This document shows, one piece after another, positions 1-8,678 of a DNA stretch of 39,206 nucleotides. The notes beneath the pieces are model-generated. The model had not been told where the DNA came from and did no database searches. It saw nothing but the letters and a program-made list of their open reading frames with translations. The DNA comes from an uncultured SAR116 cluster alpha proteobacterium (GTDB taxonomy: Bacteria > Pseudomonadota > Alphaproteobacteria > Puniceispirillales > Marisalimonadaceae). Position 1 is the stretch's first letter, and each line of letters begins with the position of its first letter. The stretch spans positions 1-39,206 of the forward strand of contig CACNQW010000008.1 in assembly GCA_902622745.1 (NCBI GenBank), in the 5' to 3' direction. A program made the position numbers and the translations under genes.

Positions 1-449
1 ATAAATGATGGAGTAAGTATTTTATTTTTGGGATGTTCACAGTTGTACAAAATTACCGAACTCCAATTCTTTTTGGGATAATCTTCATTTTTTGATCCTA
101 AATATTTTATTGGGAATTTAGTTTTGTAGTCATGTTTAACAACCTGAACCGCAAAGTTTTTGTCAAATAAAGTAAATAAATTTTGTAAATCTTCTCTTAC
201 AATCATGTCACCATCAATAAATAGTGCATTACCTTTAAATCCAGCAAGATAAGGTATAAGGAATCTCGAATATATAAAACAGTTACTTCCGTCAGTATGA
301 GTTTCTTTATAATTATTAAGCATTTCAAGATGTAGTGGTATTATTGAAACCAAACATTTAGTATTTTCTAATATACTTTGAACACAAGTATGATAAACAA
401 CTGACTCCTTAGGGTCATACCCTATAAAAATATTTAACCTTTTGACCAT
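1..449 (-). CDS. GT8-like glycosyltransferase, N-terminal part (runs off the window)
   Basis: This reading frame starts at an ATG at 449 and stays open to the left edge, so only about 149 N-terminal residues are visible. The protein begins MVKRLNIFIGYDPKESV. It contains the segment FIDGDMIV, whose D-x-D is the metal/nucleotide-sugar binding motif of GT-A fold glycosyltransferases, preceded by the IYSRFLIPYL helix typical of GT8-like enzymes. A strong ribosome binding site (GAGGGG) lies just upstream of the ATG. A sigma-54-type promoter lies at about 474-490, back to back with one for the divergent TPR-glycosyltransferase gene. The position beside two flagellins suggests a role in flagellin or surface glycan modification; that is inference. 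The sugar donor and acceptor cannot be read from the sequence. Confidence 0.75.
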   Translation of the reverse strand, partial: MVKRLNIFIGYDPKESVVYHTCVQSILENTKCLVSIIPLHLEMLNNYKETHTDGSNCFIYSRFLIPYLAGFKGNALFIDGDMIVREDLQNLFTLFDKNFAVQVVKHDYKTKFPIKYLGSKNEDYPKKNWSSVILYNCEHPKNKILTPSF

Positions 450-473
450 CTGCCCCTCTGTAAAATTATTTTT

Positions 474-490
474 TTGCAACTTACATACCA
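474..490 (-). promoter_or_regulatory. Sigma-54-type (-24/-12) promoter for the GT8-like gene
   Basis: Read on the minus strand the site is TGGTATG-N4-TTGCAA. The invariant GG (489-488) and GC (477-476) are separated by exactly ten bases, as required for RpoN promoters. The predicted start lies about 12 bases downstream of the GC, leaving a short leader that still contains the GAGGGG ribosome binding site before the ATG at 449. No activator site was identified. Confidence 0.65.
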
Positions 491-494
491 AATT

Positions 495-512
495 TTGGAA
501 TGCGTTTTGCAA
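495..512 (+). promoter_or_regulatory. Sigma-54-type (-24/-12) promoter for the TPR-glycosyltransferase gene
   Basis: The site reads TGGAATG-N4-TTGCAA, with GG at 497-498 and GC at 509-510 and a ten-base spacing. It is a near mirror image of the minus-strand site at 474-490; the two GG elements are only seven bases apart. Predicted transcription start is near 522, which leaves the AAGG at 530-533 in the leader and favours the ATG at 544 as translation start. Confidence 0.65.
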
Positions 513-534
513 TAGGTATATAAATAAATAAGGT

Positions 535-2577
535 ATGAAAAATATGTCTTTTGCATTAGAACAAAATTTTAAAAAAGCATCAAAGTTTATTGATTTTGGT
601 GACAATGAGAGTGCCAAAAAAATTTATTTAGATATTTTAGAAAAGTATCCAATGAACATAAAAGCCTCTCAGCATTTAAATGAGCTTAATAAAAGCCTAT
701 CTAAATCAAAAACAAACTTAAGAAATATAGTTCTAAATGATATTTATGAATTATATAAAAATAAAAAATTTGAAGATGCACTGAATAAAGCTTTCACAAT
801 ATATTCAAATGATGAATCTAATGCAGAATTAAACCATTTAATTGGATTAATACAATTAAATTTAGGTAATTTAGACAATTCAATAACTTACTTTAAGAAA
901 GCTGTTGAATCTGAGCCTAATAAAATGAGTTTTAATTATAATCTTGCTTTAAGTCTAAAAAAGTTAAAAAAATTTGATGAAAGTTTTTTATATTTTAAAA
1001 AAGCACTAAATCTAGATGTTAACCATCCTAATGTAAATTTCAATGTAGCACATTTATATGAAATTAAAGGTGACATCGATTTATCAATTTCTCATTATCA
1101 AAAAAGTTTCCGTAAAGATAAAAGTTTATCTGAATCTTATATTAATCTTGCTCTGATATTTGAGACTATTGGTCAAACAGAAAATGCTAGAAAAATTTAT
1201 GAGGAAGGCATCTTTAATAATCCTGATAATTTTTCTTTAAGAAACAATTTTGGTAAATTCTTAAATTCAGAGAAAAATTATAAAAAATCTATTATACATC
1301 TTAAAAAGGCTTTTGATATCTACCCAAATTCAGCAAAATTAAATTTTAATTTGGCCATGACTTATAAAGGATTAAATCAATTTGAGCAGTCCGTATATCA
1401 TTATAATAAAACACTTGATTTGAAACCAGATTATTTTGAAGCCTTTAGCCATTTGTCTGCATTATATTATGATAAAAATTTATATTTTGAAGCGGTCGAT
1501 TACATAAAAAAAGCAATTGAAATTAACCCAGAATATGCTGAAGGGCATAATAATTTGGGTGTGATTTTAAGAGATTTAAATTTAATGGATAAATCTGAAG
1601 CCTCCTTAATAAAAGCTGTGAACCTTAAGCCAAATTATTATTCAGCAATATGGAATCTTTCAATAACAAGATTAAATCAAGAAAATTATAGAGAAGGGTG
1701 GTTAGGTTTTAATTCAAGATGGTTAAATCCTAATTTAAATCAGATTCAAAGTATATTTACAAACAAACCAATTTGGAATGGTAAGGATGCAGGCAATTTG
1801 CTCATATGGTCTGAACAAGGAATTGGTGATCAAATAATGTTTTCTAGGTTTTTTAATAATCTTAGAGATTATAATGGACAAATTTATTCAATTCTTAACC
1901 CTAAACTTGAAAATATTTTTAGCGAAAGTTTTCCACATATAAATTTTGTTCAAAGCTTAGACCAGGATAAGTTTGATTTTCATTTGCCAGTTGCAAGTTT
2001 AGGAGAAATTTTTATTAAAAATAAAAATGATTTGATAGATAATTCTAAACCCTATCTTTTTTCTAAAAGTTGTAAAATAAAAAACCTTTCTAAGAAAAAT
2101 AAATTAATAGGCATTTCTTGGAAAAGTGTAAATAATAAACTTGGAAAAAATAAATCAATGAAATTATCTGATTTAAATAAAATTCTTAATCTTCCTAATG
2201 CAACATTCGTAAATCTGCAATATGGGGATGTGGATAATGAAATTCAAGAAATTAATAAACAGCTTAAAAATAAGATATTAAATCTAAAAGATATAAATAT
2301 GTTTAACGATATTGAAAGTATGGCATCATTAATATCAAAATTAGACTTAGTACTTACTATAAGTAATTCAACTGCCCATTTGGCTGGAGCACTTGGTAAA
2401 GAGACAATTTTAATGCTATCTAAAGGAAGAGGGCATTTGTGGTATTGGATGTATGGAGATAATAGAAGATCAAAATGGTATCCAACTATAGAAGTTATTC
2501 AGCAGGAGAAAATTAATTTGTGGAATAATGTCTTAGATGAAGCAAAAGAATTGATACAAAGAAAAGTATATTCTTAA
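535..2577 (+). CDS. TPR-repeat protein with C-terminal GT9-like glycosyltransferase domain; candidate flagellin glycosyltransferase
   Basis: The protein has 680 residues from the ATG at 535, or 677 from the in-frame ATG at 544. The second start is better placed relative to the AAGG at 530-533 and the predicted transcript start. Residues about 5-390 are a series of tetratricopeptide repeats (recurrent A..Y.KAL.L.P patterns). They are followed by the linker motif YREGWLGFNSRW, which in related proteins joins TPRs to a glycosyltransferase-like domain. The C-terminal domain (about 400-680) carries WSEQGIGDQI and the NSTAHLAGALGKE segment, resembling the sugar-nucleotide site of ADP-heptose-type (GT9) transferases. 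There is no signal peptide, so it should be cytoplasmic. Such TPR-GT fusions often sit next to flagellins, and here a flagellin follows after 82 bp. A role in O-glycosylating flagellin before export is likely but inferred. Confidence 0.8.
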   Translation: MKNMSFALEQNFKKASKFIDFGDNESAKKIYLDILEKYPMNIKASQHLNELNKSLSKSKTNLRNIVLNDIYELYKNKKFEDALNKAFTIYSNDESNAELNHLIGLIQLNLGNLDNSITYFKKAVESEPNKMSFNYNLALSLKKLKKFDESFLYFKKALNLDVNHPNVNFNVAHLYEIKGDIDLSISHYQKSFRKDKSLSESYINLALIFETIGQTENARKIYEEGIFNNPDNFSLRNNFGKFLNSEKNYKKSIIHLKKAFDIYPNSAKLNFNLAMTYKGLNQFEQSVYHYNKTLDLKPDYFEAFSHLSALYYDKNLYFEAVDYIKKAIEINPEYAEGHNNLGVILRDLNLMDKSEASLIKAVNLKPNYYSAIWNLSITRLNQENYREGWLGFNSRWLNPNLNQIQSIFTNKPIWNGKDAGNLLIWSEQGIGDQIMFSRFFNNLRDYNGQIYSILNPKLENIFSESFPHINFVQSLDQDKFDFHLPVASLGEIFIKNKNDLIDNSKPYLFSKSCKIKNLSKKNKLIGISWKSVNNKLGKNKSMKLSDLNKILNLPNATFVNLQYGDVDNEIQEINKQLKNKILNLKDINMFNDIESMASLISKLDLVLTISNSTAHLAGALGKETILMLSKGRGHLWYWMYGDNRRSKWYPTIEVIQQEKINLWNNVLDEAKELIQRKVYS

Positions 2578-4241: not shown

Positions 4242-6032
4242 TTATCTTAATAAATCAAGGACAGTTTGCATTGACTTACTTGCTTGCGCAATCATTGCTG
4301 TTGCTGATTGCTGAAGTATTTGAGCTCGTGTTAAGTTTGCAGATTCAAGTGCGAAATCTGCATCAGTAATACGACCTCTAGATTCTGTAGTATTCATTGC
4401 GACATTAGATAAATTATCAATAGCTTTTGTCATTCTACTCATAATTGCACCAAGTTTTGCTCTTTCTAAATTAATTCTATCTAATGCTTTATCCAATATG
4501 TCTAGTGCATTAACAGCGTTGGTTCTTGTATTTAATTTAACTGTACTTAGTTTTTGTAGTGTAGCGGATCCTGGTGATGTTGAAAATAAACCCTTATCTG
4601 TATCTGCTTGAACAGTAAATTGTGCAGTAGATGCAAATGTAACTTGTCCAGTTACTCTTGCAGAGTCGAATGTATGAGTTGTTTGATCTTTATCAATTAA
4701 TGTTACTCCCATACCTGCAGTAGATTGATCTTCTCCTAACCCAGTTACTGCCAATGCTCTGCTTGTATTTACAAATTTAACTGTTGCACCACTTGGTACT
4801 GTTCCACTGATTGCTTCTGAGAGTGTTACTGAGGCACCAGCAGATATTGCTGTTACATAAGCTCCAGCTGGTACAGGTGCGTGGTCTGATGTTATGACAA
4901 CAAAATCACCAACTTCAACATCAGTAGTAGAGGTTACATTTAGTGTAGTAGTGTCAGTAGAATCAGCATCAGTAGTTGTACTTAAATTTGTATCATTGAC
5001 TGTTTCTAAATCGAAATTTACATCGACAATTTTAATATCATGACCCTCAGCATTTGTGAGTATTAGGTTAGATTTATCTTGTGATAAAACCGCTTCAATT
5101 CCTGTTTGTGCTGTGTAAGCATTAACTGCATCTCTAAGTGTTTCAACATCTGAGGTTGCTTTTGTTGATCCTAGCGTAATCGCTGCAGAAATATTTACAG
5201 CGGTTGTATTTTTCCCATAGAGATCAAAAGCTACTGTAACAACGCCAGTCGTAGCCGGTGTATTAACTGATGAAACAGCTTCTAATTTAAGTTGCGTTGA
5301 AGCTATTGCATCAACACCATGATCATCATAACTTTGATTAACAAGATCGGCTACTTGCTTTGCACTCATATCAGCTGTGACACTTAATGCTTTATTGCCG
5401 AATTGTCCATTTATTGTGACTGTATCAGCTTCAACATGACCAGAATCACTTGCTCCTGTGACTAATTTTGCACTTGTTGCAATATCTGTATCTGTTGTGG
5501 ACATATCTGTCTTTTGTTGATAAGAGCCAATAGCATCAATTCTCATAGAACTAACTGATATGCTTGCATTTTCACCTTTTCTAACACCAATTTGAAATGT
5601 TTTACTTGCAAATGATCCATCTAAAACATTTACTTCATTAAATTCCGTATCTTTTGTAACTCTATCAAACTCTGCTAAAAGCTGATTTGTTTCAGCTTGA
5701 ATATAATTTCTTTCTGTTGCGTTATATGTATCAGAAGCAGACTGAATAGCTAATTCTCTAACTCTTTGTAAAATATCTGATATTTCACCAAGTGCACCTT
5801 CAGATACTTGAGCCATTGATATTACATCACCTGCATTTCTAACCGACATTTCTAACCCTTTAACTTGGGATAGCATTCTGTCAGATATTGCTGCACCTGC
5901 TGCATCATCACCTGCATTTGTAATTCTATCACCTGTAGAAAGTCTTTTCATTGCTGTAGACATATCTCGCTCTGTTTTTCTAGCAGCATCTACTGAAAAC
6001 AACGCTCCAGTGTTTGAATTAATTGATGGCAT
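4242..6032 (-). CDS. Flagellin, long form with extra beta-rich insert (596 residues)
   Basis: A second flagellin, clearly different from the one at 2660-4174. The N-terminal D0/D1 (about 1-170) has MKRLSTGDRITNAGDDAAGA and RVRELAIQSASDTYNATERN. The C-terminal D1/D0 (about 500-596) has NTTESRGRITDADFALE and ends MQTVLDLLR. The centre is long (about 170-500) and Thr/Ser/Asp-rich. Residues about 361-421 form a compact module (LNVTSTT..VGDFVVI..VPAGAYVTAI..SVTLS) that resembles beta-modules I associate with marine phage structural proteins or adhesins rather than the usual flagellin D2/D3. The ribosome binding site is GGAGG just upstream of the ATG. A sigma-54-type promoter lies at 6061-6078. It is probably a minor or alternative filament subunit; which flagellin dominates cannot be told from sequence. 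Confidence 0.93.
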   Translation of the reverse strand: MPSINSNTGALFSVDAARKTERDMSTAMKRLSTGDRITNAGDDAAGAAISDRMLSQVKGLEMSVRNAGDVISMAQVSEGALGEISDILQRVRELAIQSASDTYNATERNYIQAETNQLLAEFDRVTKDTEFNEVNVLDGSFASKTFQIGVRKGENASISVSSMRIDAIGSYQQKTDMSTTDTDIATSAKLVTGASDSGHVEADTVTINGQFGNKALSVTADMSAKQVADLVNQSYDDHGVDAIASTQLKLEAVSSVNTPATTGVVTVAFDLYGKNTTAVNISAAITLGSTKATSDVETLRDAVNAYTAQTGIEAVLSQDKSNLILTNAEGHDIKIVDVNFDLETVNDTNLSTTTDADSTDTTTLNVTSTTDVEVGDFVVITSDHAPVPAGAYVTAISAGASVTLSEAISGTVPSGATVKFVNTSRALAVTGLGEDQSTAGMGVTLIDKDQTTHTFDSARVTGQVTFASTAQFTVQADTDKGLFSTSPGSATLQKLSTVKLNTRTNAVNALDILDKALDRINLERAKLGAIMSRMTKAIDNLSNVAMNTTESRGRITDADFALESANLTRAQILQQSATAMIAQASKSMQTVLDLLR

Positions 6033-6060: not shown

Positions 6061-6078
6061 GTGCAATCTATATGCCAA
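6061..6078 (-). promoter_or_regulatory. Sigma-54-type (-24/-12) promoter of the long flagellin
   Basis: Read on the minus strand: TGGCATA-N4-TTGCAC, with GG at 6076-6075 and GC at 6064-6063, ten bases apart. This is the closest match to the RpoN consensus in the window. The predicted start near 6051 leaves a leader with the GGAGG ribosome binding site before the ATG at 6032. Confidence 0.7.
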
Positions 6079-6167: not shown

Positions 6168-6518
6168 TTAAATAATACGATCTAGATCTTTTTTAACCTG
6201 TTTTAGCATTAAAGGTCCAAGACTAATAGCTTCGTATTTACTGATAGCTTCATTATTTCTATAAATAGGAGAAAGTAAACTTCTTGCTTTTAAAAAGTTT
6301 TCCGTTGATGAACCTGTTGATGGAGATAAATGAGTAGTAAAAATGTTTTTTTTATATTCATTTACATTATAATTACTCATACTTTTGCTGTTATCTATGT
6401 GAGGTACTCTTAGTAACCCATTTGGCATATTGTTTGCAGAAATATCATTTAGAGGTGATTTTTGAACAGTATATCCAAAATTTTCTGTTCTATTAATTGC
6501 GTTTAATGGAGTAATCAT
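6168..6518 (-). CDS. Unrecognised 116-residue protein in the flagellin locus
   Basis: I do not recognise this protein. It has no signal peptide or membrane segment. The N-terminal two thirds are Asn/Ser-rich and look flexible; the last 35 residues (KYEAISLGPLMLKQVKKDL) look helical. It lies between the long flagellin (same strand, about 135 bp downstream, with its own sigma-54-type promoter) and fliS (divergent, 49 bp upstream). No clear ribosome binding site precedes the ATG at 6518, which weakens the exact start. A small exported flagellar protein, a chaperone substrate or an anti-sigma-type regulator are all possible; the sequence does not decide between them. Confidence 0.6.
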   Translation of the reverse strand: MITPLNAINRTENFGYTVQKSPLNDISANNMPNGLLRVPHIDNSKSMSNYNVNEYKKNIFTTHLSPSTGSSTENFLKARSLLSPIYRNNEAISKYEAISLGPLMLKQVKKDLDRII

Positions 6519-6567: not shown

Positions 6568-6999
6568 ATGACAATCAACCCATCAAATGTATTAAGTGTT
6601 TACAAAAAAGTAGAGAAAGCTGGAAACTCTGTTAAATCTCCATATGAAATTGTAAAAATTATTTTGAATGAGTTACAAAGAAACATACATTTAATGATTT
6701 TAGAAATAGATAAAAAAAAGGCGTTTACAATTTCAAGAAAATTTAAAGATGTGAAAAGTTGCCAGAAATCAATTTCTAAATACGTTGTTAAATGTCTTAC
6801 AACTATATATTCTTTGCAAACAAGTTTAGATTTTGAAAAAGGCGGAACAATCGCTACTAATCTATTTCAACTTTATGAGTTTTGTCGAACTCAGGTGATT
6901 GATAGTTTTAGTTCAAGTGAAAATAAAGGTTTGAAAAAATCTTATGATGCTTTAAGTCAAATCATAACAGCTTGGGAAACAATGGAAACAAAAAAATGA
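6568..6999 (+). CDS. fliS: Flagellar secretion chaperone FliS
   Basis: The protein has 143 residues, the usual FliS size. It binds the C-terminal D0 region of flagellin in the cytoplasm, preventing early polymerisation and delivering it to the export gate. The diagnostic FliS segment is SLQTSLDFEKGGTIATNL followed by an LYEF helix, with a C-terminal helix around DALSQIITAWETM. The N-terminal SVYKKVEKAG...SPYEIVKIIL matches the family's opening helix. An AGGAA ribosome binding site at 6559-6563 precedes the ATG. The 3' end overlaps the next gene in an ATGA junction, so the two are probably translationally coupled. The usual alphaproteobacterial flagellin regulators flaF and flbT are not seen here. 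Confidence 0.9.
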   Translation: MTINPSNVLSVYKKVEKAGNSVKSPYEIVKIILNELQRNIHLMILEIDKKKAFTISRKFKDVKSCQKSISKYVVKCLTTIYSLQTSLDFEKGGTIATNLFQLYEFCRTQVIDSFSSSENKGLKKSYDALSQIITAWETMETKK

Positions 7000-8341: not shown

Positions 8342-8369
8342 CTAAATTTGGCACGTTAATTGAAGAATT

Positions 8370-8678
8370 ATGAATAAATACAATTTTGACATTGGTACAA
8401 CATTTCAAAAGATAGTTTGGAATGCTATAGCCAATATACCTAAGGGGAAAATTTTGACCTATCAAGAATTAGCTATTGTAATAGGACATCCAAAGAGTTG
8501 CAGAGCTGTTGCTAGCGCTTGTGGTAAAAACCCTTATGTGCCAGAAATACCATGTCATAGGGTTGTTAGAAAAGACGGAAGATTAGGAGGTTATAGTGCT
8601 GAGGGTGGAATTAAAAGAAAAAAATATTTGTTACAAAAAGAAGGACATAAATTTAATAATGACAAAATAATTTTATAA
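8370..8678 (+). CDS. Methylated-DNA--protein-cysteine methyltransferase, single-domain (MGMT/Ogt family)
   Basis: The protein has 102 residues, covering only the C-terminal DNA-binding/active-site domain of the family. It repairs O6-alkylguanine by irreversible transfer of the alkyl group to its own cysteine. Seen: the helix-turn-helix with ILTYQELAIVIGHPKSCRAVASA, the arginine finger in that helix, and the acceptor motif IPCHRVV (Cys62), followed by GRLGGYSAEGGIKRKKYLL. The presence of PCHR rather than PWHR argues for a true methyltransferase and against an alkyltransferase-like (ATL) protein. It lacks the N-terminal domain of Ada/Ogt. An extended -10 promoter lies just upstream. Confidence 0.88.
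   Translation: MNKYNFDIGTTFQKIVWNAIANIPKGKILTYQELAIVIGHPKSCRAVASACGKNPYVPEIPCHRVVRKDGRLGGYSAEGGIKRKKYLLQKEGHKFNNDKIIL

Follow-up and report, generated by a model that had tools for sequence, protein, structure and literature searches.

Two glycosyltransferase genes at the beginning of a contig from an uncultured alphaproteobacterium of the SAR116 cluster point away from each other, and the short gap between them raises two questions: does it carry a sigma-54 promoter for each gene and, if so, can both promoters be occupied at the same time? The window, which is the whole stretch of DNA that was analysed (39,206 nucleotides), corresponds to contig 8 in an assembly of 74 contigs and 1.39 Mb that is only 68% complete; as it begins at the contig end, the gene for the GT8-like enzyme is cut. 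The features of the locus are listed in Table 1.

Table 1. Genes and predicted promoters at the divergent glycosyltransferase locus and the adjoining flagellin genes
Feature	Position	Strand	Remarks
GT8-like glycosyltransferase gene (GT8)	3-449	-	PF01501, E 2.3e-6; truncated at contig end (149 aa of some 230)
Intergenic gap GT8/TPR-GT	450-534		85 bp, given TPR-GT start at ATG 535
Sigma-54 promoter TGGTATGTAAGTTGCA for GT8	475-490	-	predicted transcription start ~464; 12.2 bits, weak; ~4e-4 by chance
AATTT	491-495	.	sole bases separating the two TGG elements; centre of inverted repeat CCAAATTTTGG
Sigma-54 promoter TGGAATGCGTTTTGCA for TPR-GT	496-511	+	predicted transcription start ~522; 18.8 bits, strong
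TPR-glycosyltransferase gene (TPR-GT), FlmG-like layout	535-2577	+	680 aa; TPR region (TPR families) followed by GT-B/GT9-like domain; possible alternative start at 543
Sigma-28-type promoter TAAACAATTTTAGAACAAGTCGTAA of FlaA	2602-2626	+	motif shared with 8 relatives, likewise before FlaA
Flagellin FlaA	2660-4174	+	PF00669/PF00700; no sigma-54 site
Long flagellin FlaB	4242-6032	-	PF00669/PF00700
Sigma-54 promoter TGGCATATAGATTGCA of FlaB	6062-6077	-	25.0 bits; strongest site of window
Sigma-54 promoter TGGCATATTGTTTGCA of fliS	6423-6438	+	21.1 bits; inside opposite-strand ORF 6168-6518; kept 120-148 bp before fliS in relatives
fliS, flagellin chaperone	6568-6999	+	PF02561, E 6.7e-13

A preliminary description of this DNA had read the motif TGG-N-ATG-N4-TTGCAA on either strand of the gap, GG and GC being separated by exactly ten bases, and both the sequence and a pattern search confirm this. 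The seven bases that it gave between the two -24 elements are correct too when counted from GG to GG (490-496); from TGG to TGG the distance is 5 bp. From the end of each site to the start codon there are 26 bp for GT8 and 24 bp for TPR-GT; for the sites of relatives this distance is mostly 18-41 bp. The GT8 start at ATG 449 is consistent with homologues and is preceded by a Shine-Dalgarno sequence (AGAGGGG, 453-459); for TPR-GT, the alternative start ATG 543 has a better-spaced Shine-Dalgarno sequence (AAGG, 529-532) than ATG 535. The predicted transcription starts assume that the C of GC is at -12. The pattern TGGNAN6TTGCA has four matches in the window, namely the two gap sites and the sites of FlaB and fliS, with 0.34 expected, and none of 100 shuffles reached four. 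Genome-wide there are 41 matches (3 for the reversed control); most are within coding sequence, and those at gene starts are flagellar: flgF, flgB, flgG, FlaB and the gap pair.

The preliminary description had proposed scoring with an RpoN-type matrix. We built one from 52 distinct flagellar-locus promoters of relatives and five sites of this genome; it is strict by construction, as the training sites were picked by a consensus pattern. The plus site scored as strong (Table 1), and the minus site is at the lowest edge of the training sites (12.3 bits at the lowest and 20.9 at the median, scored leave-one-out) and weak taken alone: a match within coding sequence of the window that lacks the GC reaches 12.4 bits with the same matrix. 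The chance of an equally good site per 70-bp upstream zone is 7e-5 for the plus and 4e-4 for the minus site under an intergenic order-2 null. A scan for sigma-70-like promoters found none above chance in the gap. An independent check of the motif comes from the promoter of flgF, where the site is present in all 18 genomes compared, and this validates the motif. The assembly has an rpoN gene (G000:C13, E 1.1e-62), and this gene, the GG-N10-GC spacing in TGG/TTGC context at both sites and the matrix scores uphold the proposed sigma-54 nature of the gap promoters. Judged by its sequence, the gap is a pair of predicted divergent flagellar sigma-54 promoters, one strong and one weak. Leaving competition aside, it is likely that both are working promoters of this type. 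One further near-site, TGGCACGTTAATTGAA at 8349-8364 (+), stands directly before an ogt-like gene (8370-8678); it lacks the GC and is probably no promoter.

That the two enzymes share a regulon with the long flagellin is borne out by the neighbouring promoters: FlaB, like the glycosyltransferases, has a sigma-54 site, while FlaA has a sigma-28-type promoter instead. The two neighbouring flagellins thus belong to different tiers, and the glycosyltransferases side with the long one. The same division is found in relatives, where a sigma-54 site precedes 17/18 FlaB-type genes (a count that includes the window gene and leaves out two labels that matched a very long FlgK-like protein at 47-50 bits) and 1/29 FlaA-type genes; for the FleT-like activator gene it is 19/20. 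The fliA gene was found in this genome. Transcription of FlaA mainly from the TPR-GT promoter was considered and set aside, given the conserved sigma-28 promoter in front of FlaA itself. Between FlaB and fliS, the minus-strand ORF 6168-6518 encodes a conserved protein of 116 aa of no known family, which has 33-54% identity in relatives and the same position between these two genes there.

The TPR-GT resembles FlmG of Caulobacter crescentus, a flagellin O-glycosyltransferase with an N-terminal TPR region and a C-terminal GT-B domain (PMC7591256). The likeness is one of layout, with a TPR half followed by a C-terminal GT-B domain according to profile matches and predicted fold; the window domain differs in resembling GT9. 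The model of this domain has a mean pLDDT of 90, and its best fold matches are the GT9 structures 3tov and 1psw together with TibC, a protein heptosyltransferase; Glyco_transf_9 is matched by 9/38 aligned TPR-GT members. The earlier assignment to GT9 therefore holds for a predicted GT9-like domain C-terminal to the TPRs. There is good support for reading GT8 and TPR-GT as a pair that is co-regulated and probably modifies flagellin; the adjoining flagellins and the common promoter type suggest flagellin as the substrate.

Flagellar TPR-GT genes of relatives often have sigma-54 sites too (L055, L062, L129, L137, L138), some of which were also training sites of the matrix. Many relatives across the family also have a non-flagellar cluster of TPR-GT and GT8 in tandem, which usually follows a LolA-like gene (identified by eye) and in which no sigma-54 site precedes any of 12 TPR-GT or 13 GT8 genes; the latter count omits the window's own GT8, which was listed from a wrong upstream start. 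Included in these counts is a second TPR-GT/GT8 pair of this genome (L271, G000:C19), which is tandem, has no sigma-54 site and shares 58% (GT8) and 29% (TPR-GT) identity with the window copies. By its sequence the window pair looks like the flagellar version of this gene pair, divergent rather than tandem. If both gap promoters work, sigma-54 promoters may serve to tell flagellar TPR-glycosyltransferases from non-flagellar paralogues.

No convincing sigma-54 enhancer-binding activator was found in this 68% complete assembly, and fliF is absent too. All 12 congeners have at least one such activator, and in those examined a divergent activator pair lies beside fliE-fliF-fliG, one with a Fis-type HTH and the other with no detected HTH. 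As fliF is absent along with the activators, the locus was probably just not assembled, which would account for the missing activator. The preliminary description had suggested looking for an activator of the FlbD/FlrC type; those of the congeners look like a FleQ/FleT pair instead. In congeners the FleT-like gene encodes an AAA+ sigma-54 domain and is the first gene of the fliEFG operon, whose sigma-54 promoter is preceded in the family, at 81-101 bp, by a GTCA-N6-TGAC box. The proposed tie by a shared activator found no backing near the gap: the best candidates for this box (392-405 and 433-446) carry two mismatches, which is chance level. Before the FleT-like activator gene of relatives (L142, L143, L144, L125, L126 and others) there is a box GTCATAAAACTGAC / GTCATAATAATGAC, which resembles the FleQ box of Pseudomonas.

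The congeners are similar in layout to the Fla1 system of Rhodobacter (Cereibacter) sphaeroides: a Fis-HTH activator, a divergent second activator followed by fliE-fliF-fliG, and fliA. In Fla1, FleQ with sigma-54 activates the operon of fleT and fliEFGHIJ, FleQ together with FleT activates further sigma-54 genes, and FliA drives fliC (PMC7277832). Unlike in Fla1, the flagellin FlaB and the glycosyltransferases of the window also carry sigma-54 promoters.

On the explanation we favour, the GT8-like gene and that of the FlmG-like TPR-glycosyltransferase are each served by a sigma-54 promoter in the gap, and these two divergent promoters belong to the flagellar regulon. The enzymes and the long flagellin would be produced at the same time, controlled by an activator of the FleQ/FleT type, and flagellin is most likely what the two enzymes modify. 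As the -24 elements are only 7 bp apart, a holoenzyme on either promoter probably also covers that of its neighbour, and the two would compete for a single slot, in which the stronger TPR-GT site would have the advantage. The footprint of a sigma-54 closed complex reaches to about -34, which here would extend to 498 for the minus and to 488 for the plus promoter; each complex would thus cover the other's -24 element and simultaneous binding is unlikely. From this geometry of overlapping footprints, mutual exclusion of two holoenzymes is plausible. To the explanation as a whole we give a probability of about 0.5; that both promoters are active, that this species has such an activator, that the promoters compete and that flagellin is the substrate are parts of it that we infer. 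It is doubtful whether the arrangement goes as far as a switch in which each firing serves either GT8 or TPR-GT, and competition sets the ratio of the enzymes, perhaps also the pattern of glycans on the filament. If both promoters work, the gap would offer a small natural example, easily tested in vitro, of stable sigma-54 closed complexes, two in number, in competition for the same piece of DNA, and flagellin glycosylation would be tied to the sigma-54 tier of flagellar expression in this group.

Divergent sigma-54 promoters are already known, and the new part is the 5-bp packing, the extreme case in the order. The hyc and hyp promoters of E. coli are reportedly divergent and co-activated. 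No published back-to-back overlapping sigma-54 promoters were found in open-licence papers. In Desulfovibrio vulgaris, the divergent sigma-54 operons orp1 and orp2 are activated together by one activator, with IHF and activator sites between the two promoters (PMC3897727). The gap is like both systems in having two sigma-54 promoters facing apart and differs from orp in the 5 bp between its TGG elements. The other divergent sigma-54 pairs in the order are at flagellar loci, with TGG elements 38-65 bp apart, and the strict pair pattern was found in 1/136 genomes of the order, namely this one. Elsewhere in this genome, divergent sites 48 bp apart (L260:12577-12656) lie between flhA and an operon starting with a short lipoprotein-like gene. 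At the flagellin locus of a congener, two sigma-54 promoters 65 bp apart (L129:2310-2406) diverge, one towards a gene for a TylF-like methyltransferase and the other towards a TPR-GT operon.

Several points stand against the favoured explanation as a whole: the weakness of the GT8 site, the uniqueness of the strict pair, the core at flgF, the lack of an activator box, and GT8 homologues with no sigma-54 site. The core, ATACCAAATTTTGG and likewise CCAAATTTTGG, recurs at the flgF promoter of this genome, where there is no opposite -12 element, and it is not conserved there in congeners; an inverted -24 half can thus arise without being used. Together with the large score gap (18.8 versus 12.2 bits) and the GT8 homologues elsewhere, this would fit a reading in which the plus-strand site alone works, the inverted half matched on the minus strand is due to chance, and the scans have missed a weak promoter that serves GT8. 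We regard this as rather unlikely, given that the minus site has a complete, exactly spaced -24/-12 that lies 26 bp ahead of the start codon of GT8, at a chance of about 4e-4, and that there is no other promoter-like site above chance.

Both promoters might also work with no hindrance in practice, if occupancy is not limiting, the arrangement is merely compact and one activator fires both. The joint activation of orp1 and orp2 by one activator is a precedent (PMC3897727), but there IHF and activator sites fit between the promoters, whereas nothing fits between those of the gap, and the other pairs in the order are spaced much more widely, making this unlikely. The symmetry of the arms, TTGCAA-N4-CAT-N-CCA and TGG-N-ATG-N4-TTGCAA, would also suit an inverted repeat that is mainly the operator of a dimeric regulator overlapping a single sigma-54 promoter. 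We consider this very improbable: two copies of a promoter motif, which is found singly elsewhere in the same regulon, account for the symmetry. As a conserved operator, the palindrome CCAAATTTTGG was rejected because it is not conserved at flgF in congeners.

The relatives' genomes searched contain no orthologous intact gap. In the congeners seen, fliD is upstream of FlaA; in one genome (G015) TPR-GT precedes FlaA, but the contig ends there. When 84,980 species were scanned for the pair, 77/117 of the matches listed were within ORFs and 6/117 between divergent ORFs, and most look like chance. Canonical-looking pairs among these six are those of a member of the Burkholderiales (L156) and of the Clostridia (L189), and the tight layout may thus recur.
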